Source: a virus. Taken from it: a DNA stretch of 35,079 nt. Numbering within the stretch: the stretch's first letter is position 1; every line of letters begins with the position of its first letter. Position numbers and translations under genes: made by a program. The stretch lies in IMG/VR virus record IMGVR_UViG_3300032053_000260, positions 1 to 35,079 of that record; one strand, 5' to 3'. The notes beneath the pieces are model-generated. The model did no database searches, was not told the origin of the DNA, and worked only from the letters and a program-made list of their open reading frames with translations. Below, piece after piece: positions 383 to 15,267 of the stretch.

Positions 383-2014
383 TTACTGCTCTTCTTCAGG
401 TTTAGGAACTTCTATTTCACTCGGCTCCGGTTCAGAAATATCTTTGCCGGGCTTTACTGGTTCCTCTGGTTCTCCAGAAGGTGCAGCAGGTTCCTCTTTA
501 GCTTTTTCTTCAGGCGGAGGTTCAACATCTCCGTCAATTTCTTTTTGCATCTTTGCAATTTCATCGTCGTCCAGCTGCAATATTTCTCTCTTGATATACT
601 TGGAAGAGAAATATTTTGCATCATCTTCAGCATAAGGAGTCATTTGATCTAGAATATCTAAACGCTCTTTAAGAATCTCTGTCTTCTTCAGTTCGGCAAA
701 ATAAGAATCAGATAAGAAATCATAGAAGATATTTTCACGAATGGCATCCCAATCATCTTCAGTTGTAATCTTTTTTAAGATAAGCTGTCGCTTTAAAAGT
801 TCATCAAACAACTTTGAAAATTGATGGCGAAGTCTTGTAATGAATTTTGAAAACTTCACTTCTTCTCTCGAAATTTCTGCGGCCCGTCCAATACTAAAAC
901 CATTTTCCGGATCTAATCTTGTTCTAGGAATAAACAAAGACTCGTACAGTTTTTGTTGAAAATATGTTACATCTTCAATCTCAGATAGATTCTGTCCACC
1001 GGCCAACGTTTCAACAGAGCTTTGTTGCTCGCCACGCTTTGGAAAGTAGAAGTCTTCTAGCATCATCATATGCCGCCGGTCATCTCTTGTTTCTCCTGTA
1101 GTTGGATTATAAACAAGTTTGTTTCTGAAATCGTCCATAATCTGTTGAACATATTGCTTTGCCTTAGCTGGCGGCATATCACCCACGTCAATATTGAATA
1201 CTCTGCGCTCTGGCGCTCTTGTGATACGATAAATGATAAGAGCATCTTCCATAGCTCGAAGTTGGTTATATGGTCGAATTGCACTGTGAAGATAAGAAAG
1301 AATCATTGTATTCTCTGTGCTCGGTAAACCGGAGTCAACCGCAGCAACACTATCAATTGTTATCTTTTCTCCGCGACTTAAACTCTCAGCAGTTGTTGGA
1401 CCAGTTGTTGAAAATCCCATCTTGTCATACAAATAATATTCGGTAACTTTCTGTACAACTTCTTGGCGGGTGTTTGGATCAAACCCCTTTGCAACTTCAC
1501 GAATCTTCTTAATGTATCTTGGGTCAACATAACGAAGTTCTTGAATTCCTGCTTCTGGTTTATCGGCATCAATAATTATATGATAGTGCAGCTTCGCATC
1601 AATGTACCAGCGTCTGGCAATGTTATATGCTTGGTTGTTGAAATTAAGAAGCTTCAAAACATTTGTGAACTCAAGCTCAATCTTTTCTCTTAAACGATCT
1701 GAAAATTTAAAGTTGTCGCCGATGACTAAACTGACAGGTGGCTTTTCTTCATCAGAAACAATCATATCATTTACAACTTCATCAATGGCTTTTTGAACAG
1801 TTCCGTCCATAGCCATGTTTCTGTATTTGTAAATTAAATCAATTTCATTATTAATGACGCCTTCGATATCGCAAATATATTTGTTGTATGCGGCATTGGG
1901 ACCGACTTCAACAACCAGAGCGCCATCTTCATTTACTGGAAGAGCAAATGATTTTGTGTTTGTATCTTTTTTTTCTTCTCTGCCAAATCGAAAACCAAAT
2001 AATCTGAAGTTCAT
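383..2014 (-). CDS. 20: Portal vertex protein (T4 gp20 family)
   Basis: A 543-residue protein, close to the roughly 520 residues of T4 gp20. It forms the dodecameric ring at the unique head vertex through which terminase packages DNA and to which the neck attaches. Features typical of gp20-type portals include a short hydrophobic-basic N-terminus, the segment KYRNMAMDGTVQKAIDEVVN near residues 63-82, ARRWYIDAKLHYH near 134-146 and ELRYVDPRYIKKIREV near 160-175. The last 50 or so residues are Pro/Glu-rich, acidic and probably disordered. Start: ATG at 2014, with a weak AGG upstream and a consensus late promoter about 33 bases before it. It is separated from the tail-tube gene by a homing endonuclease gene, whereas in T4 genes 19 and 20 are adjacent. 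Confidence 0.95.
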   Translation of the reverse strand: MNFRLFGFRFGREEKKDTNTKSFALPVNEDGALVVEVGPNAAYNKYICDIEGVINNEIDLIYKYRNMAMDGTVQKAIDEVVNDMIVSDEEKPPVSLVIGDNFKFSDRLREKIELEFTNVLKLLNFNNQAYNIARRWYIDAKLHYHIIIDADKPEAGIQELRYVDPRYIKKIREVAKGFDPNTRQEVVQKVTEYYLYDKMGFSTTGPTTAESLSRGEKITIDSVAAVDSGLPSTENTMILSYLHSAIRPYNQLRAMEDALIIYRITRAPERRVFNIDVGDMPPAKAKQYVQQIMDDFRNKLVYNPTTGETRDDRRHMMMLEDFYFPKRGEQQSSVETLAGGQNLSEIEDVTYFQQKLYESLFIPRTRLDPENGFSIGRAAEISREEVKFSKFITRLRHQFSKLFDELLKRQLILKKITTEDDWDAIRENIFYDFLSDSYFAELKKTEILKERLDILDQMTPYAEDDAKYFSSKYIKREILQLDDDEIAKMQKEIDGDVEPPPEEKAKEEPAAPSGEPEEPVKPGKDISEPEPSEIEVPKPEEEQ

Positions 2015-2046
2015 ATTAATTGCCTAATATCTTTAAATTCAAGATA

Positions 2047-2054
2047 TATTTATA
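2047..2054 (-). promoter_or_regulatory. T4-type late promoter upstream of portal
   Basis: Perfect TATAAATA on the minus strand, 33 bases upstream of the portal ATG. In T4 this octamer alone defines late promoters recognised by the gp55 sigma factor with the gp33/gp45 clamp. Expected transcription start is about six bases downstream, leaving a short leader. Confidence 0.8.
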
Positions 2055-2097
2055 CATCTTGAATTGTGGCAATTTTTAATATGTCTAGGAGAATGGA

Positions 2098-3786
2098 TTA
2101 GGAAATATATGAATATACTAAGTTTCCGGCATCCCAAATGCGCCGATATCCATTATTGAACATGTTATTGGCTTCAGTTATAGAAGAGTCAAATACCGGA
2201 AGTAATTTTGATAGCTTGTGTTTTTGAAAATGATTGCGAGAATATAAGCTAAACTCTCCCGATTTAAAATAAAAATAGTTGGGCGAGGTTTCTTTGATTA
2301 ACGTAAAACCTAACTTATCATAAACTTTACCATTAAAAAATCTTCGATCAGAATAAGAAATGACAGATTTTGGTTTATATTGAAGAACAAAATATGAAAA
2401 TAATTTGCTTGCTCCCCCAACAATTCGTGTGTTGAGTTTATTACAAAATCGAATCATTTCATATTCATAATTTGAATTAAACCTCGGTTTTGTAAATGTC
2501 ATTACAGATACCAATTCATTATTATGATAAAGCCCTAGATTAATTTTAGCATTGAATGAGCCTTGAATATGATTTTGGTTATTAAAATCTCTACTTTCCC
2601 GAGAAGAGATTTCTTTGATCGTACAATTTCTTGCAAATATTTTTTCGTTATAATGATTTAAATGTGAAGAAATAATTGATTTACAGATATCTTGTTTCAA
2701 TAACCACTCATTCTCAAATATTTGAATAAGATGAATTCCTGCTTCTATACATTTTTTATTCTTTGTCAAGTGAATACATTTTTCTTTAAATGTTTCAATC
2801 GAATCATATGAATGCCAAAATATACCGTTGAACTCGATAGCTAAATTTATCTCGGGTAAATAGATGTCTAATTCTTTTGGTGCTATAATTGTTCTATCAT
2901 TTTCGATTATGGCTCCGGAGTATATACTTTGAATATATACCAGAACTTCTTTTTCCAATAAAGAGTGCGAAAGTCCTTTAACTTCAATTTCATGTCTCTT
3001 GAAATATCGACTCACTAATAATTTAGTAACTTTTAAAATATTAGCAATTTCTGATAAGGTTTTGTTTTGTTCATAATGTTGATTTTTCAGCCATTCTTTG
3101 TCTTGAAGTTTTTGTAATATTTCTAAAGACAAGTGTTTCTGTAGATGGCTCGGTGTGCCATATTTTTTTAAACACGTAAGTTGCGTTTTTTCTTTTATAG
3201 GTTCGGACTGAGATGCATATGGAACTCCAAATTTTTTTCTATTAGTTGATTCTCTTCTAGATTTTATCTCGGGCATTCCAGATGGATTTGCGACCCCATA
3301 TTTTTGGATGCATGTTAGATCAGCCTTTTTTCGAATCTCTGTATTTTGTAAAGGCGCTGTAACTCCATATTTTTGAAGGCATGTATTTGTTATCTTTTTT
3401 CTAATATCTGCCGACTGTGCAGGATTTTCAACTCCATATTTTTCGATGTTTGTTTTTTTTCTCTGTTCGTTATTATTGATATATCCACATTTGCTAGAGC
3501 ATGTTGGCTGGAACTGCAACAAATTCGGCAACCACTTTAAAGGCGCGTGTCTACATACCGGACAGACTGGAATGTATTGAATGTCATTTAAAATGAATTG
3601 AAGTCTTTTAGAGAAAGACCCGGCCTCGTCCAAGAACGAAGTCATTTCTATGATATTATCTCTAATTGTTAAGAAATTTTTTTGCTGCCACCAATCTATT
3701 CGGTTTATAACGGTGCTATTAATTGCACCATTGGATTTAAGAAGATTTTGTTTAATCCAACTTTTAAGCTGTTCACGCTCCATCAT
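2098..3786 (-). CDS. Free-standing homing endonuclease, Vsr-like nuclease with YGV repeats
   Basis: A 562-residue protein inserted between tube and portal genes. Order of parts: an N-terminal alpha-helical segment; a zinc-knuckle-like CPVC...CSSKC (about residues 75-100); five imperfect repeats of about 23 residues with the core KYGVxxPxQ (about 110-217), common in phage homing endonucleases and probably DNA-binding; a helix-turn-helix-like segment ([20 protein letters not shown]); then the putative catalytic core [18 protein letters not shown] followed by FWH (about 304-325), matching the PD-(D/E)XK/Vsr-like (EDxHD-type) nucleases. An additional domain of about 200 residues follows. The reading frame extends to a TTG at 3801, but ATG at 3786 or 3783 is more likely because the -10 element of a promoter overlaps the upstream codons. 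It probably mediates its own spread and is dispensable for the virion. Confidence 0.85.
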
Positions 3787-3789
3787 TAA

Positions 3790-3817
3790 AGTATATCCCA
3801 AACAAATTAAATGTCAA
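3790..3817 (-). promoter_or_regulatory. Sigma70-type promoter for the homing endonuclease gene
   Basis: TTGACA (3812-3817) and TATACT (3790-3795) are separated by 16 bases on the minus strand. The -10 lies only three bases before the ATG at 3786, so the transcript would be nearly leaderless. The same -35, spacing and -10 occur at 20608-20635. This suggests early or middle expression by host holoenzyme, unlike the neighbouring late genes. Confidence 0.6.
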
Positions 3818-4490: not shown

Positions 4491-6383
4491 TTAGAACTTC
4501 CCAACAACTTCTTCGAAAGCAACTCCAGTACGAACTGCAATGAAATTGAGTTGTATAAAATTAATTGATCTCGCGGGCTTAATGTAAATGTCACCAACGA
4601 ATTCGTTTCTATCAATTACTTCTCCTGTGTTGTTTGTGTCGTCGCAAACAATCATGAAGTCATAGATACCTCTGGCAGCTTTCACACTTCTCAGATAGGG
4701 ATCGACAAGACTCTTGAACTGCGCTCTGGTAAATTCATCATTGAATTCAAACAGGAAGAATCTTGCAGCTAGAGCAATTGCTTTCTCAAGAACGATGAAC
4801 AATCTGCGAACATTGATGCGATCAAACGCACTTGGTTTGCCAAGCAATGTCTTGTCACCGTAGAGAACGATGCCTTGACCTGGGATAGAAATAATCGGAT
4901 TGATTCCTTTCAGGTAGAGATCGTCCCTGTCAGCCTTGTCTGGATTGTAAGCAAGCTTTACAACGTTCTTAATCTGACCCCGGTTTAAACCGGCTGGCGA
5001 CCACCAAGGATCTCTATCTGTATCAGTTCTTACGCATAGACCGGCGATGTCTCCGTTCATGGGAACCCAACGATAAACATCATTGTACTTGTCATACATA
5101 AACTTCCAATTAGCATCCATGACGGCATATGAAGAAGAGATTTGCAAATCTTCGCGGTCTTGGATTACATCGGGAAGTGGATCAGGATTGTTTACAACCG
5201 AATCCAACTTGGGCGAAATCAGCGCAATACAATCCTTGCGATACTCGCAAAGGTTGTTAATGACATATCTAGCTACTGATGTGCTGTGATTTGCAGTAAT
5301 TACTAGAGCCACGTCCACAACTTCGGCGTTTCTGAACAGGTCATATCCGCGTTCGATGTCACCATCTGAAGGCGAGTTGCCATCAGCACCGCCAGCCATT
5401 ACCTCTGTCTTTGGAGCGCCACCGACATAAGCATATGCCGGATCTGCATTTTTGTATGGGGCAGTAATGTTGTTCGAATCAACCGAGTTCTCTAGGATCC
5501 TTACATATTTTGAAGATTGGTTGATTCTGGCTACCCAATAATTCGCGCTTCCATCTTCTGTCTTGGCCGTAGTGCATTTAGATAGGAACTGATACTTCTC
5601 AAGCAACTGGCCATTCAGGCCCGTGAAAACGCCTGAGCCATCTACTACTGCAACATGAATCTCATCATTGCTTCCTCCCTTTGCAGCAATAAAAGAAGAT
5701 GTGCTAGGAGCGATTCCAAACACTTCAAAGTATTGCCACTGAACCGTTACAGGAGTTCCAAATGTTATATCAACAGAAAATGCAGAGTTTAATGTAGCGC
5801 CGCTGCTATCCGGAACGCCGACAGCAGTGATAGTTCTTTGTTCATTAGTAACTTCGTTAATAACAACAGAGCCAACTCCAAAATTATTTACATCCCCCGA
5901 ACTTAGACTAAGGTGGGATCCTGTAGTGCCCACAGTTAACATTCCGGTTTGTCTAAAAGCGGCAGCTGATGGACACACTGAAACGATAATGCCGTTACCC
6001 TTTGCGCCCGGAAACTTTGCGGCAGAAAATCCAGAGGGGAACGGAGAGCGTGTCTCAAAATCCACATCGTTCTTAATGAGTTGTACATCTCCGGCATTGC
6101 TAGAAGCATTCTTTGAAGTTGCTTCGTTGATTGCTCGAACCAATCTGAGCTTGTTGCCGTATGCCAAGAAACTGGCAGCAGTAAACCAAGTGGCCGCGTT
6201 CGCCGTATCTGGCTTGCCATAGCTATTGACCAGTTCATTCTCAGAACTTACTAGTACAACTTCATCGCAAGGCCCCCAACGAAAGTCACCGGCCAGTGCG
6301 CCGTCAGTTGTGGACACAGCAGGAATTACATTAGTTAGATCAATTTCAGTTACGTTTACGCCTGGGCTAAGAGAAAATGACAT
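4491..6383 (-). CDS. 18: Contractile tail sheath protein (T4 gp18 family)
   Basis: A 630-residue protein, close to T4 gp18 (659). It polymerises around the tail tube and contracts on infection. Hallmarks are the N-terminal SFSLSPGVNVTEIDLTNVIP followed by TDGALAGDFRWGP, and the conserved C-terminal core FRNAEVVDVALVITANH, LISPKLDSVV, GLNRGQIKNVVKLAYNP, GINPIISIPGQGIVLYGDKT, FDRINVRRLFIVLEKAI and the terminal block IYIKPARSINFIQLNFIAVR. The central part (about residues 150-330) is the variable outer domain. Start ATG at 6383 has AGGAG upstream. It sits between terminase and tail tube as in T4. Confidence 0.96.
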   Translation of the reverse strand: MSFSLSPGVNVTEIDLTNVIPAVSTTDGALAGDFRWGPCDEVVLVSSENELVNSYGKPDTANAATWFTAASFLAYGNKLRLVRAINEATSKNASSNAGDVQLIKNDVDFETRSPFPSGFSAAKFPGAKGNGIIVSVCPSAAAFRQTGMLTVGTTGSHLSLSSGDVNNFGVGSVVINEVTNEQRTITAVGVPDSSGATLNSAFSVDITFGTPVTVQWQYFEVFGIAPSTSSFIAAKGGSNDEIHVAVVDGSGVFTGLNGQLLEKYQFLSKCTTAKTEDGSANYWVARINQSSKYVRILENSVDSNNITAPYKNADPAYAYVGGAPKTEVMAGGADGNSPSDGDIERGYDLFRNAEVVDVALVITANHSTSVARYVINNLCEYRKDCIALISPKLDSVVNNPDPLPDVIQDREDLQISSSYAVMDANWKFMYDKYNDVYRWVPMNGDIAGLCVRTDTDRDPWWSPAGLNRGQIKNVVKLAYNPDKADRDDLYLKGINPIISIPGQGIVLYGDKTLLGKPSAFDRINVRRLFIVLEKAIALAARFFLFEFNDEFTRAQFKSLVDPYLRSVKAARGIYDFMIVCDDTNNTGEVIDRNEFVGDIYIKPARSINFIQLNFIAVRTGVAFEEVVGKF

Positions 6384-6428
6384 CTTCGTTCTCCTTAATA
6401 ATTAGAATTTTATAGTATTCTATATTTT

Positions 6429-6436
6429 TATTTATT
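6429..6436 (-). promoter_or_regulatory. Late-promoter variant upstream of tail sheath
   Basis: AATAAATA on the minus strand (seven of eight), 46 bases before the sheath ATG, in the gap after the terminase stop codon. Confidence 0.5.
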
Positions 6437-6457
6437 AATTTGAGATTTTTCATTTGG

Positions 6458-8200
6458 TTAATGTGGCTGATAGTCATCGTCGCATACTAGCCATAAATCA
6501 CCATCTGCCACGAAACTTTCAGGTTTTGTCTTACCATCGTGGTTGTCTTTGAAAGCAAATGGAACTTCTATAAACATTCCGTCATTTGTCAAGGAAGTCT
6601 TTAATGTTTCTGGCGTGATATTCTTAAAGTATTTCTGACTTGTCAACCAGCCGAACATCACTAAAGACATAACAAGATCATCATCATAGCCAGAATCCGC
6701 CGCATACGAGCCGCCCTTGCTTATGAAAGACGAAAGCTCTGATATGATATCAAAATCTCTAATAACTAGTTTATCTTCTTCAATTAAAGTTTTAAGATTA
6801 GAACAACCAATTCTTTTTACACTTGTTGTTGTTCTTAAACCAAGTTTGAAACCTTTTGGCTGCCCGATTGCAATCTTTTGGGCCGACAGCTTCTTATCCA
6901 TAGTTGTACTTAAAACATTTTCATATTCGAGTTCATATTTAATAATATCAACTACTTGCCCGCCGATATCGTTGATTTCAACTAACACATAAGATTCATT
7001 ATACTTTTTTGCTATGTCAACAATGATAGCTGGATAAGCCATAGCCGAGATTGTATTTGAACGATACTTGGCCACAACTTTGTAGGGAAGGTTTGAGATT
7101 TGAATTACTGTAAAAGCAGAACAATTATTTTTATCTCCTCTGGCAGTATCTACACAAATACAATATTCCTTCCCAGCTTCTGGCAATTCATAAACATCTA
7201 AGCCGCGCTCTGAATAGAGAGGCTTATCGAATATCAAGTTAGCTAACTTCGAAGATGAAATTAAAGTATCGCTTACAGAACCAAAAAATTCATTGGAGTA
7301 CTCAATTCTGAAAGCTTCTTCTCCAATATTTTTAATTGTTTCTTCTTTCCATTTTTCGTCCCTTCCTGGAGTTTCCCACCAATATGCTTTAAATGGAGAA
7401 TAAGAATTTAGTCCGGCCTCTGCATCGTGCCAGAGTTTATAAAAAAGATTTACGCCGTTGGCGGTGCTGACTATAATAATCTTAGACTGCGTTCCGGCAG
7501 TTACCGTTGGATATACCGATTTAAAAAAATCTGATGCAACATTATTTGGCACAAATGCAAATTCGTCGAGCACGAGGTCTGTGATGCTGCCAGATCTAGC
7601 TGCATTTCCTGTTGTTGCATCCACGGAAACCTTCGAGCCGTTTTCAAGTTCGATAGAAGTTTTATTCCATTCAATTACACCCTGTTGTAGCCAAACTGGT
7701 AAATTTTCATACGCCATTTTTAATCTGGCTAAAATGTCTCTGGCAGTTTTAATTCTGTTGGCAAGTAAAACAATATTTTTGTGTTCATGAAAAATTGCTG
7801 CCCATAAAATATAACAAATATATCCAACTGTGTTGTGACTTAAAATTTCGTTGGTATAGTATCGATGGTTGTTTGAATCCACCGTGATATCATACATGTT
7901 TTCTTCAAGCTGTTCGTTTAATACAGACACAACTGTTTCATACCCATCGCGTGTTATAATTTTTGTTTGATTTGGAATACAATCTTTAATAAATATTTCA
8001 TCTCCACAAGCATCAAATATAATATGATTGTCGGCGCATCTTAATGTTTTTCCGGAATCGGTTATGATTGAATATACCAAATAAGGAACTGTCTTGTGGA
8101 TTTCGGTAGCATCTTCCCATCCAGTATCTGTTTCAATTTCCCAGTCAGAAATGTCAAAAGATTCAACAAATTTTCTTTCCAGCGAATCAGATTTATTCAT
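6458..8200 (-). CDS. 17: Terminase large subunit, C-terminal ORF: C-intein plus ATPase/nuclease
   Basis: A 580-residue ORF whose first 123 residues are a C-intein. It shows block B-like CADNHI (55-60) and block F MYDITVDSNNHRYYTNEILS ending in His122-Asn123 (DNA 7832-8200). The C-extein starts with Thr124, the missing Walker A threonine (TVGYICYILW). It continues with Walker B LVLDEFAF (209-216), the coupling motif SKIIIVSTANG (239-249) and the RNase H-like nuclease with Asp351 (CVDTARGD), Glu408 (LVEINDIGG) and Asp506-508 (YDDDLVMSL). These match T4 gp17 family motifs. It has no N-terminal ATPase segment and no complete P-loop, so it should be inactive until trans-spliced to the product of 9340-9732, giving a protein of about 545 residues. 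The start overlaps the end of the endonuclease gene by eight bases. Confidence 0.95.
   Translation of the reverse strand: MNKSDSLERKFVESFDISDWEIETDTGWEDATEIHKTVPYLVYSIITDSGKTLRCADNHIIFDACGDEIFIKDCIPNQTKIITRDGYETVVSVLNEQLEENMYDITVDSNNHRYYTNEILSHNTVGYICYILWAAIFHEHKNIVLLANRIKTARDILARLKMAYENLPVWLQQGVIEWNKTSIELENGSKVSVDATTGNAARSGSITDLVLDEFAFVPNNVASDFFKSVYPTVTAGTQSKIIIVSTANGVNLFYKLWHDAEAGLNSYSPFKAYWWETPGRDEKWKEETIKNIGEEAFRIEYSNEFFGSVSDTLISSSKLANLIFDKPLYSERGLDVYELPEAGKEYCICVDTARGDKNNCSAFTVIQISNLPYKVVAKYRSNTISAMAYPAIIVDIAKKYNESYVLVEINDIGGQVVDIIKYELEYENVLSTTMDKKLSAQKIAIGQPKGFKLGLRTTTSVKRIGCSNLKTLIEEDKLVIRDFDIISELSSFISKGGSYAADSGYDDDLVMSLVMFGWLTSQKYFKNITPETLKTSLTNDGMFIEVPFAFKDNHDGKTKPESFVADGDLWLVCDDDYQPH
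7832..8200 (-). other. C-terminal half of split intein (IntC, 123 residues)
   Basis: This region encodes the intein portion of the downstream terminase ORF. Visible motifs: GWEDATEIHKTVPYLVYSI, block B-like TLRCADNHIIFD carrying the conserved His, and block F ending ILSHN. The junction codons are AGT CAC AAC | ACA, so cleavage after Asn leaves Thr as the +1 nucleophile. Because block B lies on the C-piece, the split is early, unlike the DnaE type and like the atypical AceL-TerL split intein. Confidence 0.9.
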
Positions 8201-9308
8201 TTAAAAACTCTAAACATTGATAGACAATTGTTTCTGGAGATGCTTTATAGTCTTTTTCTCGGACACGAAGAACTTTGATTCCCAGTGCTTCTATTTTTTG
8301 TTGACGGTTTAGATCTCTTTGCATATTATTTGGATTTGCATGGTGCCAGTATTCTCCATCAAATTCTATAACCTTTTGAAGATCTTTAAGATAGAAGTCT
8401 GGTTTGCAATATGATTCTTCTAATTTCAAACAATATTCGTGATTAATTGTTTCGTCTTTGTTTTTTGTGTGTGTGTTCAATGTTGCAAAATATATTTCGT
8501 GACAAGATAAATCTAGTTGATTATATACCGACCAAAATAAAGTCTGAGATACATTTGAATAGTTTTGTTTTTTAAAATTTGATAACCACTTTTCTTGTCG
8601 ACTTTGCCATTTAAGTTTTCCCTCTTGTTCACCATATTTCTCAATACATCTTTTTAACGAAAAGGTTTGTTGTCTTTCTCTTCTTGCAATGATTGCGTCC
8701 TCTAAAGACATTCCACGAAATGTATAATATTCTAAACTAGTGGTGTTGTTGTGATTTCTTTTTCTTGATTCTTTAGACTTTTTAAGAACATCTTCTTTTT
8801 TGGCCTTTCCTATAAACTTATCTGAGAAGGGAGAAAATTTTCCTCCATGTTGATGTGCAGGATTTTTTGCTCCTAACACTTTGTCAGACAAAAACTTACG
8901 ATATGTTTCTGTTTGACACGACTCTCCTGGAAATTTTTCACAATATTCTTTTGTTGATATGCCGTGCATCTTTCGAATATGTGAAGCAATCGACTGTGAT
9001 TTAAGACCACATACTTTACATTCAACATATTCAGATAGAATATTGAATTTTAAATCGTTTCTTTCAAAGACCTTATCATTCTGTTTTAAATTTCTCCGTT
9101 GTCTCTTACACTCATCAGAACAACAAACTATTTTATTTGGACTTTTCGAATAAAAATCTTTGTCGCAGACAACGCACCGAATGTCTCGTTTTAATTTTTC
9201 GGATCTGGCACGAAACGCATAGTGGTTTTTGCAATTTGCATTACAATACAAAGCCTTTTTTGGTTTATGTGAAATATCTTTTCGACAAAACCTGCACAAT
9301 CTTTCCAT
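8193..9308 (-). CDS. Homing endonuclease between the split terminase halves
   Basis: A 371-residue protein. The N-terminal 120 residues hold three zinc-binding modules: CRFC...YCNANC (5-26), CVVC...CCSDEC (45-67) and a MucR-like CKVC...SHIRKMHG followed by STKEY (97-122). Then come a basic linker and the motif EKYGEQEGKLKWQSRQEKWL. The C-terminal nuclease has CKPDFYLKDLQKVIEFDG followed by EYWHH, then QRDLNRQQKIEALGIKVLRV, a Vsr-like (EDxHD-type) fold; the IEFxG...WH signature is shared with the gene at 2098-3786. Strong AAGGA precedes the ATG. The gene begins 32 bases after the N-terminal terminase ORF and overlaps the C-terminal ORF by eight bases. This is the known 'fractured gene' plan: split intein with an endonuclease gene between its halves. 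It probably cleaves intein-free terminase genes. Confidence 0.9.
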   Translation of the reverse strand: MERLCRFCRKDISHKPKKALYCNANCKNHYAFRARSEKLKRDIRCVVCDKDFYSKSPNKIVCCSDECKRQRRNLKQNDKVFERNDLKFNILSEYVECKVCGLKSQSIASHIRKMHGISTKEYCEKFPGESCQTETYRKFLSDKVLGAKNPAHQHGGKFSPFSDKFIGKAKKEDVLKKSKESRKRNHNNTTSLEYYTFRGMSLEDAIIARRERQQTFSLKRCIEKYGEQEGKLKWQSRQEKWLSNFKKQNYSNVSQTLFWSVYNQLDLSCHEIYFATLNTHTKNKDETINHEYCLKLEESYCKPDFYLKDLQKVIEFDGEYWHHANPNNMQRDLNRQQKIEALGIKVLRVREKDYKASPETIVYQCLEFLNE

Positions 9309-9339
9309 TTCATATCCTTAATAAATAATATTCATCGTA

Positions 9340-9732
9340 TTATTTATCTTCCTTTTCACTCGACAGTGCGGAGTTTTTATTGATTTCAAAAAATTCTTTC
9401 ATTGTCATTTCAACTATTTGATTTGTTTCTTTATTTTTTAAGCGAATTCGCGTAAGTGCGTCACAACACTTGCCAATTTGCCTAGAACACAAACTAATTG
9501 AAAATCTGTTATCAATGAAGTTTTTGATCATTCTCTTTTGATGATCGTATAGGACACAAGGAATCAATCCTTTGTCCAATGAAATAATCTTGACGTAGTT
9601 TTCGATGAAGTAGATTGGATCTTTGGAACACTTTATTATTTCGGCGACTTGTTCTTGCGTAAAATCAATCTTTACACCGGCAGCTTTTAGTTTGGGGTTG
9701 CCGAGATAAGTTGATTTCTGAAATAGTCTCAT
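9340..9732 (-). CDS. 17: Terminase large subunit, N-terminal ORF: N-extein plus N-intein
   Basis: A 130-residue ORF. Residues 1-88 are the N-terminus of a T4-type large terminase (FTQEQVAEIIKCSKDPIYFI then ENYVKII, GLIPCVLYDHQKRMI) and end at the Walker A sequence SRQIGK. Residue 89 is Cys1 of the N-intein, whose block A reads CCDALTRIRLKN, followed by EMTMKEFFEI and a stop after 42 intein residues. I place Cys1 at the first of the two adjacent Cys by alignment to known N-inteins and to T4 gp17 (SRQLGKT). An in-frame TAA lies six codons... upstream of the ATG (5'-TAATTCATTATG), so the ATG at 9732 is forced. I see no clear Shine-Dalgarno, and the late-promoter variant lies only seven bases upstream, suggesting a near-leaderless message. 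Confidence 0.94.
   Translation of the reverse strand: MRLFQKSTYLGNPKLKAAGVKIDFTQEQVAEIIKCSKDPIYFIENYVKIISLDKGLIPCVLYDHQKRMIKNFIDNRFSISLCSRQIGKCCDALTRIRLKNKETNQIVEMTMKEFFEINKNSALSSEKEDK
9341..9348 (-). promoter_or_regulatory. Late-promoter variant embedded in end of N-intein ORF
   Basis: GATAAATA on the minus strand (seven of eight), overlapping the last codons of the N-terminal terminase ORF and 33 bases before the endonuclease ATG. It would give the endonuclease gene, and the C-terminal terminase ORF behind it, their own late transcript. Confidence 0.4.
9343..9468 (-). other. N-terminal half of split intein (IntN, 42 residues)
   Basis: It starts with Cys-Cys-Asp-Ala-Leu-Thr and carries only block A and the following strand/helix (MTMKEFFEI). 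It must associate with the IntC encoded at 7832-8200 to splice in trans. The last two sense codons plus stop (GAT AAA TAA) also form a near-match to the late promoter octamer. Confidence 0.88.
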
Positions 9733-9739
9733 AATGAAT

Positions 9740-9747
9740 TATTTATC
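9740..9747 (-). promoter_or_regulatory. Late-promoter variant upstream of split terminase
   Basis: GATAAATA on the minus strand (seven of eight), ending seven bases before the terminase N-half ATG. Initiation about six bases downstream would leave almost no 5' leader. Confidence 0.4.
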
Positions 9748-9763
9748 ATCGCAATAAAGAAAT

Positions 9764-10348
9764 TTATTTAGCGTAAATTATTCTAATCCATGTTGACCAC
9801 CCTGTTCCGTAATCGGTGGTAAAGGTTCGTAGGTTAATTCCAGCTGGTGTTCCTATAAAAAGGCTAATGCTATATGTGGCGGGATTACCATAGACCGCCG
9901 GAAGGCCCACGAATTGATCAGAGCCAATACGCTGTGTAGCGCTATAGTATTTAAATATTTTTTGGGTATTAATATTTCCCAAAGATGTGGTTTTTATTCC
10001 ATCCTGGGGAAGATCACCCAGATCTATTTCTTTACAGTATAACGTTCTGCCCGATAAATCCTTCTCAAATGGCCAAACCTGTTCTGAAGTAGACCACTGG
10101 AAAGCAACTGGACCACCAACAAGAGTTGTGATGTCCTTGATCAAAGTTGCAAGTACATCCGCCAACTCATCTGCTGTTGTAACATCCGCATCAATCACGC
10201 GATCTGTAGTGTCGTTGGTGATAGTGTAAGCAGGTAACCCAGTTGGAGTATAAAACTCAAAACCAGATTCGTCCGTCTTGACTCTTAAAATCTGCCCAGA
10301 TGTTCCTGTAATGTTTGTAAGAACTGTACCAAGTCTTCTTGCTGCCAT
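9764..10348 (-). CDS. Virion appendage-like protein A, paralogue of 11391-11981
   Basis: A 194-residue protein of unknown exact function. It has three parts. The N-terminal cap (1-35, MAARRLGTVLTNITGTSGQI then LRVKTDESGFEF) is shared with the genes at 11391-11981 and 15676-17427. A central cassette (about 40-75) contains YTITNDTTDR and DADVTTADELADVLATLIKD. A C-terminal beta-rich domain of about 85 residues ends in RIIYAK. The first 110 or so residues are nearly identical to the paralogue while the C-terminal domain differs, except for the last few residues. The pattern of constant base plus variable tip suggests a fibre, spike or head decoration protein. It lies between gp13 and terminase, where T4 carries genes 14-16. 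It has its own consensus late promoter. Confidence 0.75.
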   Translation of the reverse strand: MAARRLGTVLTNITGTSGQILRVKTDESGFEFYTPTGLPAYTITNDTTDRVIDADVTTADELADVLATLIKDITTLVGGPVAFQWSTSEQVWPFEKDLSGRTLYCKEIDLGDLPQDGIKTTSLGNINTQKIFKYYSATQRIGSDQFVGLPAVYGNPATYSISLFIGTPAGINLRTFTTDYGTGWSTWIRIIYAK

Positions 10349-10382
10349 TTGAAATTCCTATTTAATACAAATGTAACATTTG

Positions 10383-10390
10383 TATTTATA
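10383..10390 (-). promoter_or_regulatory. T4-type late promoter upstream of 9764-10348
   Basis: Perfect TATAAATA on the minus strand, 35 bases before the ATG at 10348 and in an intergenic gap of 71 bases. Confidence 0.8.
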
Positions 10391-10419
10391 TTTTTGTTAT
10401 TTTTTGATTATTGAATAAT

Positions 10420-11385
10420 CTATCCCACGAAGAACCCAAGCGGCTCCGAGAATCTTCCATTTTTGACTTGTTCTTCAAGCTCAAGCTTCTCCGCTTTACC
10501 TTGTTCAAGAATCCTTGGTCCATCTAAAGTAACAGCGCCGGGCAATTGAATGCCAGCAAACTTAGAAATATTATTGCCCCACTGAATTCTAAACAGTGCC
10601 GTGCAGTATTGCTTCAAGAAATAATCGCCCCACACTTTTGTATACTCTTCTGGATCTAAAATTCTCATACATTCAATAATCAAATACATATCTGGAACTA
10701 CGGCGCGTTTCCAATCGAAATCAATATAAAGTTTTTCAGTGTGTCTATTAAATCGAATTGGCTTCTGACCAATCAACAACTGGTTCATCAGATTGATTCG
10801 TTCTTTCATTAGTTCATAAGAAACCATATCAAGTCCGTTGAAGTTCCAGATCAATTCAAACGCTTGATAGTAAGCTGGGTCAAACAAATATGAAGTTGTC
10901 ATATTTGCACTGATAGGAAATATCTTTGTAACACTCATCACAGCATTTGAAACGTCAATATATTTTTTATCCAAGTCTCCAATAACAACTGCATTGATAG
11001 CGGCCAAAGTTGCAGAGGAAATTATACTAGAGATAGTTTCTCCGTTTACAAATGCACCTTCTGTTTGCCACACCATAATAGAAGCGTTGTTGGCAGACTG
11101 AACGTGTACCATTGACTTAGCGCCGCTTGTTCCACCAATAACTTGATCGCCTTTCCTGAAAGTATCTACCGGTATTGGTGCAGCAAAGTTTAATTGAGTG
11201 GCTGTAAGCTTGTGTTTGGTATAGAGTTTCTCAGCGCCGTCAAAATGCCATTCATTAAAAAACTGCAAAGCGTCATCAATACGATCTTCGAGTTGTTGAT
11301 CGGCAACATTGATATCGATAACTGGATAGCCCAGTTGTCTCAAACAATATTCTTTCAGTTCTATTCTGCTATTTACTTCGGCCAT
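10420..11385 (-). CDS. 13: Neck protein (T4 gp13 family)
   Basis: A 321-residue protein of about the length of T4 gp13 (309). It belongs to the head-completion/neck complex that seals the packaged head and joins the tail. Family features: NSRIELKEYCLRQLGYPVID and INVADQQLEDRIDDALQFFN at the N-terminus; IRFNRHTEKLYIDFDW, MYLIIECMRILDPEEYTKVW and LFRIQWGNNISKFAGIQLPG in the second half; and a C-terminal LEEQVKNGRFSEPLGFFVG. Between about residues 70 and 145 lies an apparent inserted beta-rich segment (FRKGDQVIGGTSGAKSMVHV ... GAFVNGETISS) that interrupts the usual flow into VMSVTKIFPI. The ATG is five bases after the preceding stop with no clear Shine-Dalgarno, so translational coupling is likely. 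Confidence 0.9.
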   Translation of the reverse strand: MAEVNSRIELKEYCLRQLGYPVIDINVADQQLEDRIDDALQFFNEWHFDGAEKLYTKHKLTATQLNFAAPIPVDTFRKGDQVIGGTSGAKSMVHVQSANNASIMVWQTEGAFVNGETISSIISSATLAAINAVVIGDLDKKYIDVSNAVMSVTKIFPISANMTTSYLFDPAYYQAFELIWNFNGLDMVSYELMKERINLMNQLLIGQKPIRFNRHTEKLYIDFDWKRAVVPDMYLIIECMRILDPEEYTKVWGDYFLKQYCTALFRIQWGNNISKFAGIQLPGAVTLDGPRILEQGKAEKLELEEQVKNGRFSEPLGFFVG

Positions 11386-11390
11386 TTGTT

Positions 11391-11981
11391 TTATTTAGCG
11401 TAAATAACTCTAACTTTGGCAGTCCAGCCATAGGTTCCATAATTAAATCCCGTTTGAATAGTTACCACAGTGTATTGCATCCATACGCTTACAGTGTAAT
11501 TATATCCATCACTGCGGGTCATATTGAGAGGCAAAGCATAATCAGTTGATGTTGGACCAAACACCAATCCTTCAACTTTATGAACTTTTAGAGTATTTAA
11601 TGAAGGTATATTATGCGAAGTATTTGAATTGCCACTATTGGGCAGTGTTCCACAATCAATTTGTTTACAATATAAGATATTTCCAGAGTCATCTTTCTCA
11701 AAAGGCCATACTTGTTCTGAAGAACTCCACTGGAAAGCGACTGGACCTCCAACTAAAGTTGTAATGTCTTTAATCAGTGTTGCAAGTACATCCGCAAGTT
11801 CATCTGCCGTTGTAACATCTGCATCAATCGTCCTGTCCGTGGTGTCGTTGGTGATGGTGTAGGTCGGCAAACCCGCAGGAGTGAACATCTCGAAGCCAGA
11901 TTCGTCAGACTTAACCCGGAGGATCTGTCCTGAAGTTCCTGTTACGTTTGAAAGAAATTGTCCTAATCTTTTTGCTGCCAT
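11391..11981 (-). CDS. Virion appendage-like protein B, paralogue of 9764-10348
   Basis: A 196-residue protein with the same N-terminal cap (MAAKRLGQFLSNVTGTSGQI, LRVKSDESGFEMF) and central cassette (YTITNDTTDR, DADVTTADELADVLATLIKD) as the gene 1 kb downstream. It continues in common through VGGPVAFQWSSSEQVWPFEK, then has a different C-terminal domain (about residues 115-190) rich in Tyr/Thr/Val beta strands, ending VRVIYAK. AAGGAG precedes the ATG by eight bases. It lies in a unit with the upstream 79-residue gene (11-base gap) and gp13 (5-base gap). Probably a virion appendage protein; the exact role is unknown. Confidence 0.75.
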   Translation of the reverse strand: MAAKRLGQFLSNVTGTSGQILRVKSDESGFEMFTPAGLPTYTITNDTTDRTIDADVTTADELADVLATLIKDITTLVGGPVAFQWSSSEQVWPFEKDDSGNILYCKQIDCGTLPNSGNSNTSHNIPSLNTLKVHKVEGLVFGPTSTDYALPLNMTRSDGYNYTVSVWMQYTVVTIQTGFNYGTYGWTAKVRVIYAK

Positions 11982-14782: not shown

Positions 14783-15250
14783 TTATTTTTTAAAATGCTT
14801 ATGTACAGACGCATCACTGACACCCAACAAACGAGCAACTTTTGAAAAATTCATTTCATTTTCAAACATCAAACAATTTAAATCTATAAAATTCCAATTT
14901 ATTTTTGTTGGGTGGATTCGATCTGTATTAGAACATTTACAAGAACAATATGTTCTTTCTCGCGATTGCCTCGTTTGAAATTTCTTATAACAGACAGGAC
15001 ATTCTTTAGTAAGATAGTTAATAATTCTTTTCTTTTTAATATTTCTACCACAAAATGTACTTGTTTGACTATTGCAGTTTGGACAAAGTAATCTAAGATT
15101 TTCAGTTCGATCATCATTATTGATACCATTAATATGATCTAGAACCAGTGTTAGTGGTTTAAGATTCCATTCGGATAACCCACATATGGAACATTCATTT
15201 TTGATTTTGTTTTCTTTTAGCAGCCTTCTTTTAGGTGTTCCTCGGTGCAT
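14783..15250 (-). CDS. HNH homing endonuclease with C-terminal zinc finger and HTH
   Basis: About 155 residues from ATG 15250. Order of parts: an HNH nuclease with zinc-binding CSICG and CPNC, and catalytic core LVLDHINGINNDDRTENLRL followed by LCPNC; a second CPVC...YCSCKC zinc module; and a C-terminal helix-turn-helix (FSKVARLLGVSDASVHKHFK). This is typical of phage mobile endonucleases. The frame opens further upstream at ATG 15265, but a TATAAATA promoter ends three bases before that ATG, so transcription should start at or past it. The ATG at 15250 has AGGGCGG at proper distance and is preferred. It is adjacent to and convergent with the tRNA-Tyr, a common setting for homing endonucleases in phage tRNA regions. 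Confidence 0.88.
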   Translation of the reverse strand: MHRGTPKRRLLKENKIKNECSICGLSEWNLKPLTLVLDHINGINNDDRTENLRLLCPNCNSQTSTFCGRNIKKKRIINYLTKECPVCYKKFQTRQSRERTYCSCKCSNTDRIHPTKINWNFIDLNCLMFENEMNFSKVARLLGVSDASVHKHFKK

Positions 15251-15267
15251 ATATTCCGCCCTCATTG

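Follow-up and report, generated by a model that had tools for sequence, protein, structure and literature searches.

The window analysed here, a 35,079-nucleotide (nt) stretch of viral DNA (record IMGVR_UViG_3300032053_000260, positions 1 to 35,079), carries on its minus strand a gene for a T4-gp17-type large terminase (TerL) that is divided between two open reading frames (ORFs), with a split intein inside the Walker A motif, or P-loop. We consider it very likely that the two products are joined by protein trans-splicing, and that the gene lying between them encodes a homing endonuclease. The first ORF (9340–9732; 130 amino acids, aa) comprises an 88-codon N-extein (9469–9732), which sequence, PHROG families and alignment identify as TerL and which ends in SRQIGK, the first part of Walker A; this is followed by the 42-codon N-terminal half of the intein (IntN; 9343–9468, stop codon at 9340–9342), beginning CCDALTRIRL and contributing Cys1 and block A. 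The second ORF (6458–8200; 580 aa), also matched by PHROG TerL families, opens with the 123-codon C-terminal half of the intein (IntC; 7832–8200; blocks B, F and G), which ends in EILSHN, and continues into a C-extein of 457 codons plus stop (6458–7831) that begins TVGYICY and so supplies the Thr (+1) of Walker A, followed by Walker B and the RNase H-like nuclease.

Joining the exteins in silico at SRQIGK/T (a slash marks the splice junction throughout) yields a TerL of 545 aa with an intact SRQIGKT P-loop, in keeping with the first-pass annotation, which had placed the enzyme in these two ORFs and expected a product of about this size. Locus L001 encodes a TerL without an intein, and in an alignment of 531 aa the spliced protein is 57% identical to it, with no gap at the junction (SRQIGK/T in the window, PRQIGK/S in L001); the spliced protein also aligns with the TerL of L002 and with that of Caulobacter phage Cr30. 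The score against Terminase_6N rises from 31.4 bits for the C-half alone to 42.7 bits for the joined exteins, the match then starting within the N-half.

In the intein itself we see C1, H59 (the block B His), H122 (penultimate), N123 (terminal) and T+1; where TxxH is usual, IntC has Ala in place of the Thr, as does VidaL. The intein C-terminal model TIGR01443 scores above its cut-off on the C-half, and the N-terminal model TIGR01445 does so on IntN and IntC joined. Among solved split inteins, a profile of IntC matches VidaL (7e-13) and gp41-1 (9e-12) best, followed by CatC (5e-8) and NrdJ-1 (1e-4). An AlphaFold2 model of IntC, predicted alone (mean pLDDT 90.5), finds 47 PDB entries at E≤0.001, nearly all of them inteins, indicating a HINT fold; the top match is again VidaL (6vgv; TM 0.75, 26% identity). 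Sequence, profiles, the predicted fold of IntC and some 100 relatives (below) thus support a split intein inside Walker A with Thr+1 as nucleophile and with an early split, block A lying on IntN and block B on IntC, as had been proposed.

The annotation had described the locus as a split gene, which it is, but had overlooked a 371-aa ORF between the halves (8193–9308, minus strand). This starts 31 nt past the stop of the N-half, is preceded by a likely ribosome-binding site (AAGGA, 9315–9319, minus strand), and at its other end its stop overlaps the start of the C-half by 8 nt (ATGAATAA; 8193–8200, minus strand), an arrangement in which translational coupling is likely. The protein has a zinc-finger N-terminal region and a Vsr/I-Bth0305I-like C-terminal nuclease: the C-terminus matches PF18741 and DUF559, and Vsr weakly, whilst the family profile hits 3r3p, the catalytic domain of I-Bth0305I, at E=1e-4 and, in its N-terminal part, a Ros zinc finger at 0.01. 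The predicted fold, although of low confidence (pTM 0.35), returns Vsr and I-Bth0305I as its first matches (I-Bth0305I at TMt 0.69, with a Foldseek E of only 0.07). D304, E315, D317 and H322 are invariant in 12 homologues and may correspond to the E, D, H and D catalytic residues of the EDxHD enzymes. From these similarities we presume the protein to be a homing endonuclease and, because its gene sits between the halves, the locus is more than a split gene: it is a mobile fractured gene, combining a split intein with a homing endonuclease, of a kind already known.

Viral contigs and phage records were scanned for relatives; with identical copies removed and both intein halves recognised, there are 99 distinct related inteins, of which 78 are split with an endonuclease between the halves, 10 are classed as continuous and have endonuclease sequence in a different frame, six are continuous without an endonuclease and five are other splits. 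Cys1 is found in all 99 and a C-terminal SHN in 96, whilst 98 combine Lys−1 with Thr or Ser at +1 (a GK/T or GK/S P-loop junction); since so many share this junction, all with Cys1, that of the window is not due to chance. The 42-aa IntN, which the annotation had singled out as unusually long, is ordinary, because in the 78 split relatives IntN spans 32–78 aa (median 38). The window groups in the tree with L104, L107 and L143 (support 95/96), all of them split TerL genes with an endonuclease. Besides TerL, the hosts include gp46/SbcC-like P-loop genes (n=29; L145, L165, L167, L194 and others) and DnaB-type (gp41-like) helicases (n=2; L213 and L219); one and the same split intein family appears to have moved among unrelated P-loop genes. 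Homologous IntC sequences occur in about 320 phage records, and most of those examined from the Ackermannviridae belong to continuous inteins that occupy the site seen in the window.

In close pairs of relatives (L207/L209, L185/L190, L166/L168, L169/L197, L187/L197, L066/L072 and L066/L174; distant pairs, being saturated, were excluded), the ratio of nonsynonymous to synonymous substitution rates (dN/dS) is 0.13–0.38 for IntN, 0.06–0.21 for IntC and 0.10–0.23 for the endonuclease; all three are under purifying selection. The distribution of the intein is sporadic, and close relatives free of it exist. In Cr30 (L054, 3986–6704) terL is uninterrupted and is immediately preceded by a homologous endonuclease gene; the P-loop of this terL has SRQSAKS in place of the usual GK and is possibly an altered, resistant target.

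Taken together, an intein would have invaded a T4-gp17-type TerL gene at the P-loop codons for GK/T, the intein now being in two pieces. The separate ORFs would give each half of TerL fused to its own half of the intein; the halves would bind, rebuilding the HINT fold, and trans-splicing would follow, with Cys1 attacking, Thr+1 taking over the N-extein and Asn123 cyclising with the help of His122. The endonuclease most likely cuts the P-loop DNA of intein-free copies, by which the whole insert would spread.

Three points weigh against this account. The nearest intein is only about 59–66% identical, so selection is not measurable on the window itself. The Pfam Intein_splicing model falls below its cut-off (19.2 against 35.8 bits), as it likewise does for the continuous intein of phage Kuja (21 bits). 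Lastly, whilst the 35-kb record holds no second TerL, it is a fragment, and an intact terL may therefore lie elsewhere in the genome. Along the last of these lines, the terL of the window could be broken, its intein insertion degraded and the gene dead or the phage defective, with another TerL doing the packaging; the jumbo phage LR756500 does have an extra TerL fragment that lacks a P-loop. Both halves here, however, run undamaged to their ends and keep their intein and extein motifs, the arrangement is found again in 78 distinct loci, and a match to the TerL N-terminus is single in 11 of the 12 other records searched, which makes a dead gene extremely unlikely. Joining of the pieces in RNA, by an intron housing the endonuclease gene, has precedent in the terL of ICP1, which is joined by RNA splicing (PMC10448857), and introns often do carry such genes. 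We give it almost no credence: positions 6300–10500 contain no Rfam intron match; the endonuclease ORF has a mere 31 nt between it and the N-half and runs into the C-half at its other end; the residues beyond the exteins form conserved intein blocks that, in relatives, evolve under purifying selection; the continuous homologues are ordinary inteins; and, in relatives, gene order rules it out. Readthrough or a programmed frameshift is rejected too, the frame of the N-half meeting 33 stops before IntC.

A further question is what the split is for. As it falls inside the P-loop, neither half should hydrolyse ATP alone, and the annotation had suggested on these grounds that trans-splicing gates packaging. 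Although packaging does depend on splicing, no evidence points to regulation of the one by the other, and we think it very unlikely that the intein is retained as a regulatory switch. Ordinary inteins commonly insert at the K/T of the P-loop (PMC5050341), and a sporadic distribution, with intein-free close relatives and an endonuclease travelling along, is what one expects of a mobile element. It is simpler to see the intein as selfish and nearly neutral, tolerated by its host gene.

The relatives with endonuclease sequence in another frame bear on how such a locus might arise. In six lineages (L005, 5634–8483; L008, 5643–8447; L066/L068/L072; L067; L218; and L221) the N-extein, IntN, a spacer of about 270–280 codons, IntC and at least the next part of the C-extein form one open frame, the spacer being taken up by the endonuclease gene in the +1 frame; the endonuclease is, in other words, overprinted on a continuous intein. 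Over its 273–279 codons the intein frame contains no stops, against 14–19 expected from synonymous-codon shuffles (6–12 being the lowest counts in 1000 shuffles). The related split locus L073, by comparison, has 34 stops against 33.6 expected, and most split relatives whose two frames stand in this relation have 20–60. Between L072 and L068, 24 of 31 substitutions fall at third positions of endonuclease codons, giving seven amino-acid changes in the endonuclease and 26 in the intein frame; conservation of the spacer as protein is thereby ruled out. Absence of stops together with substitutions that follow the endonuclease frame would mean that, as it seems from these sequences, the intein frame is kept open whilst the spacer sequence itself is free to vary. 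In L174 and L175 most of the endonuclease is lost and the intein frame is kept. An assembly artefact is unlikely, because L005/L006 and L008/L012 recur, near-identical or identical, across different metagenomes.

In the overprinted loci the start codon of the endonuclease and the GGAG-type site before it are embedded within the IntN codons for TIGEFYE (ATAGGAGAATTTTATG). By a strict pattern, 30 of 77 split loci carry this signal; the counterpart stretch of the window, coding for TMKEFFE (9385–9404, minus strand), has none, and its endonuclease uses a downstream start. We think it reasonably likely that this overprinting is a new arrangement and a possible route by which split inteins originate: a stop arising in the shared frame would leave trans-splicing halves and hence a fractured gene, of which the window would be a late stage, and rearrangement could then scatter the pieces. 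The series would run from empty site, through continuous, overprinted, split around an endonuclease and split without one, to scattered. The origin of natural split inteins is poorly understood, and this family holds every one of these suggested steps at a single site. As to direction, the tree leaves continuous against split unfixed: many of its forks are weak, and the overprinted loci fall into at least two groups among the split ones, which tells against a passage from continuous to split. One asymmetry speaks for that passage: a single stop closes the frame, whereas opening it would need a dozen or more stops to be removed.

Three cultured phages carry the arrangements placed last in this series, and they point to trans-splicing. 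Delftia phage PhiW-14 (GQ357915; L230, 2476–4755) has IntN, two stop codons and then a new ORF from IntC, with no endonuclease between the halves and only one TerL found; its N-half is unannotated in the record. In Vibrio phage vB_VmeM-32 (KU160494; L059 and L051) the N-half (79947–80624, minus strand), near the small-terminase gene, lies 77 kb from the C-half (1102–3216, plus strand), which adjoins the tail-sheath gene. In Salicola phage SCTP-2 (MF360958; L236, L250 and L251) TerL is spread over three ORFs (429404–429730, 256428–257321 and 216116–216895): the middle one opens with the P-loop intein's IntC and closes with an apparent IntN that belongs to a second intein, this one at Walker B, and the IntC that goes with the latter opens the third, so that two split inteins appear to join the three pieces. 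Given how the genes are placed in these last two phages, no route to a full TerL is visible other than protein trans-splicing, which implies that it would take place there. The C-half of VmeM-32 TerL also holds a second, continuous intein, and DNA polymerase and RecA-like genes of this phage (69004–74600) are likewise annotated in several pieces; the last TerL piece of SCTP-2 has a further, apparently continuous, intein. With PhiW-14, VmeM-32 and SCTP-2 in culture, splicing becomes testable on real virions.

Split inteins flanking a Vsr-like endonuclease were reportedly described as fractured genes by Dassa in 2009. The window has the same order (extein-IntN, endonuclease gene, IntC-extein) and an endonuclease of the same Vsr/I-Bth0305I group, but differs in its site, the terL P-loop, and in its overlapping genes, and has relatives in which the endonuclease is overprinted in a continuous intein frame. 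The annotation had likened the window to AceL-TerL, in which the +1 residue is Cys. This likeness holds in part: the AceL-TerL, GOS-TerL and Cat inteins are early, atypical splits in TerL with a short IntN (25 and 37 aa; PMC11766414). GOS-TerL, however, with its IntN of 37 aa, has Cys at +1 (PMC11766414), AceL and GOS are inserted at another site than K/T of the P-loop, and CatC matches the IntC of the window less well than do VidaL, the best solved relative by profile and fold (at only 26% identity in the fold match), or gp41-1. An allele of AceL-TerL or GOS-TerL is excluded by site and +1 residue alike, GK/T in the window as opposed to a Cys+1 site (RQEFE/CEF, as in L221) elsewhere in TerL.

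At the K/T site itself, mycobacteriophage TerL1-a is a continuous terminase intein (PMC5050341), and the Ackermannviridae inteins (Klebsiella phage Magnus, where the intein is annotated, Det7 and Kuja) share the Lys/Thr position and are homologous to the IntC of the window; those examined differ in being single ORFs with no endonuclease. The ShiLan domain hides an out-of-frame HNH endonuclease in a non-intein insertion, with no detectable ribosome-binding site (PMC11855218). It resembles the overprinted relatives in placing the endonuclease in another frame of an insertion that the host frame reads openly, but in the latter intein splicing blocks are encoded in that frame and the endonuclease start has a GGAG-type site before it. 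Terminase inteins at the P-loop K/T and split TerL inteins are thus already known, whilst the overprinted relatives would be new; the searchable literature yielded no account of an intein frame that has an endonuclease overprinted on it, nor of TerL genes scattered like those of VmeM-32 and SCTP-2. The packaging ATPase that this new split intein interrupts is essential; the intein has Cys1/Thr+1 chemistry and an IntN of 42 aa, and its roughly 100 relatives offer material for comparison in the development of splicing tools.

Additional TerL-like sequences occur in some related records: L055 has a second, truncated ORF (7058–7874) with a broken P-loop (SSRQMGIS) downstream of its split terL, and L033 and L034 each have a second TerL-like copy. 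The surroundings of the locus in the window fit a T4-like packaging and tail module, with sheath, tube, homing endonuclease and portal genes downstream and a head-tail adaptor gene upstream. No small terminase is recognised in the window; two similar ORFs without a known family (9764–10348 and 11391–11981) flank the adaptor gene, where gp16 might be expected. The downstream homing endonuclease gene (phrog_3339; 2098–3801) has the tail tube and portal genes on either side; an HNH endonuclease gene is located at 14783–15265.

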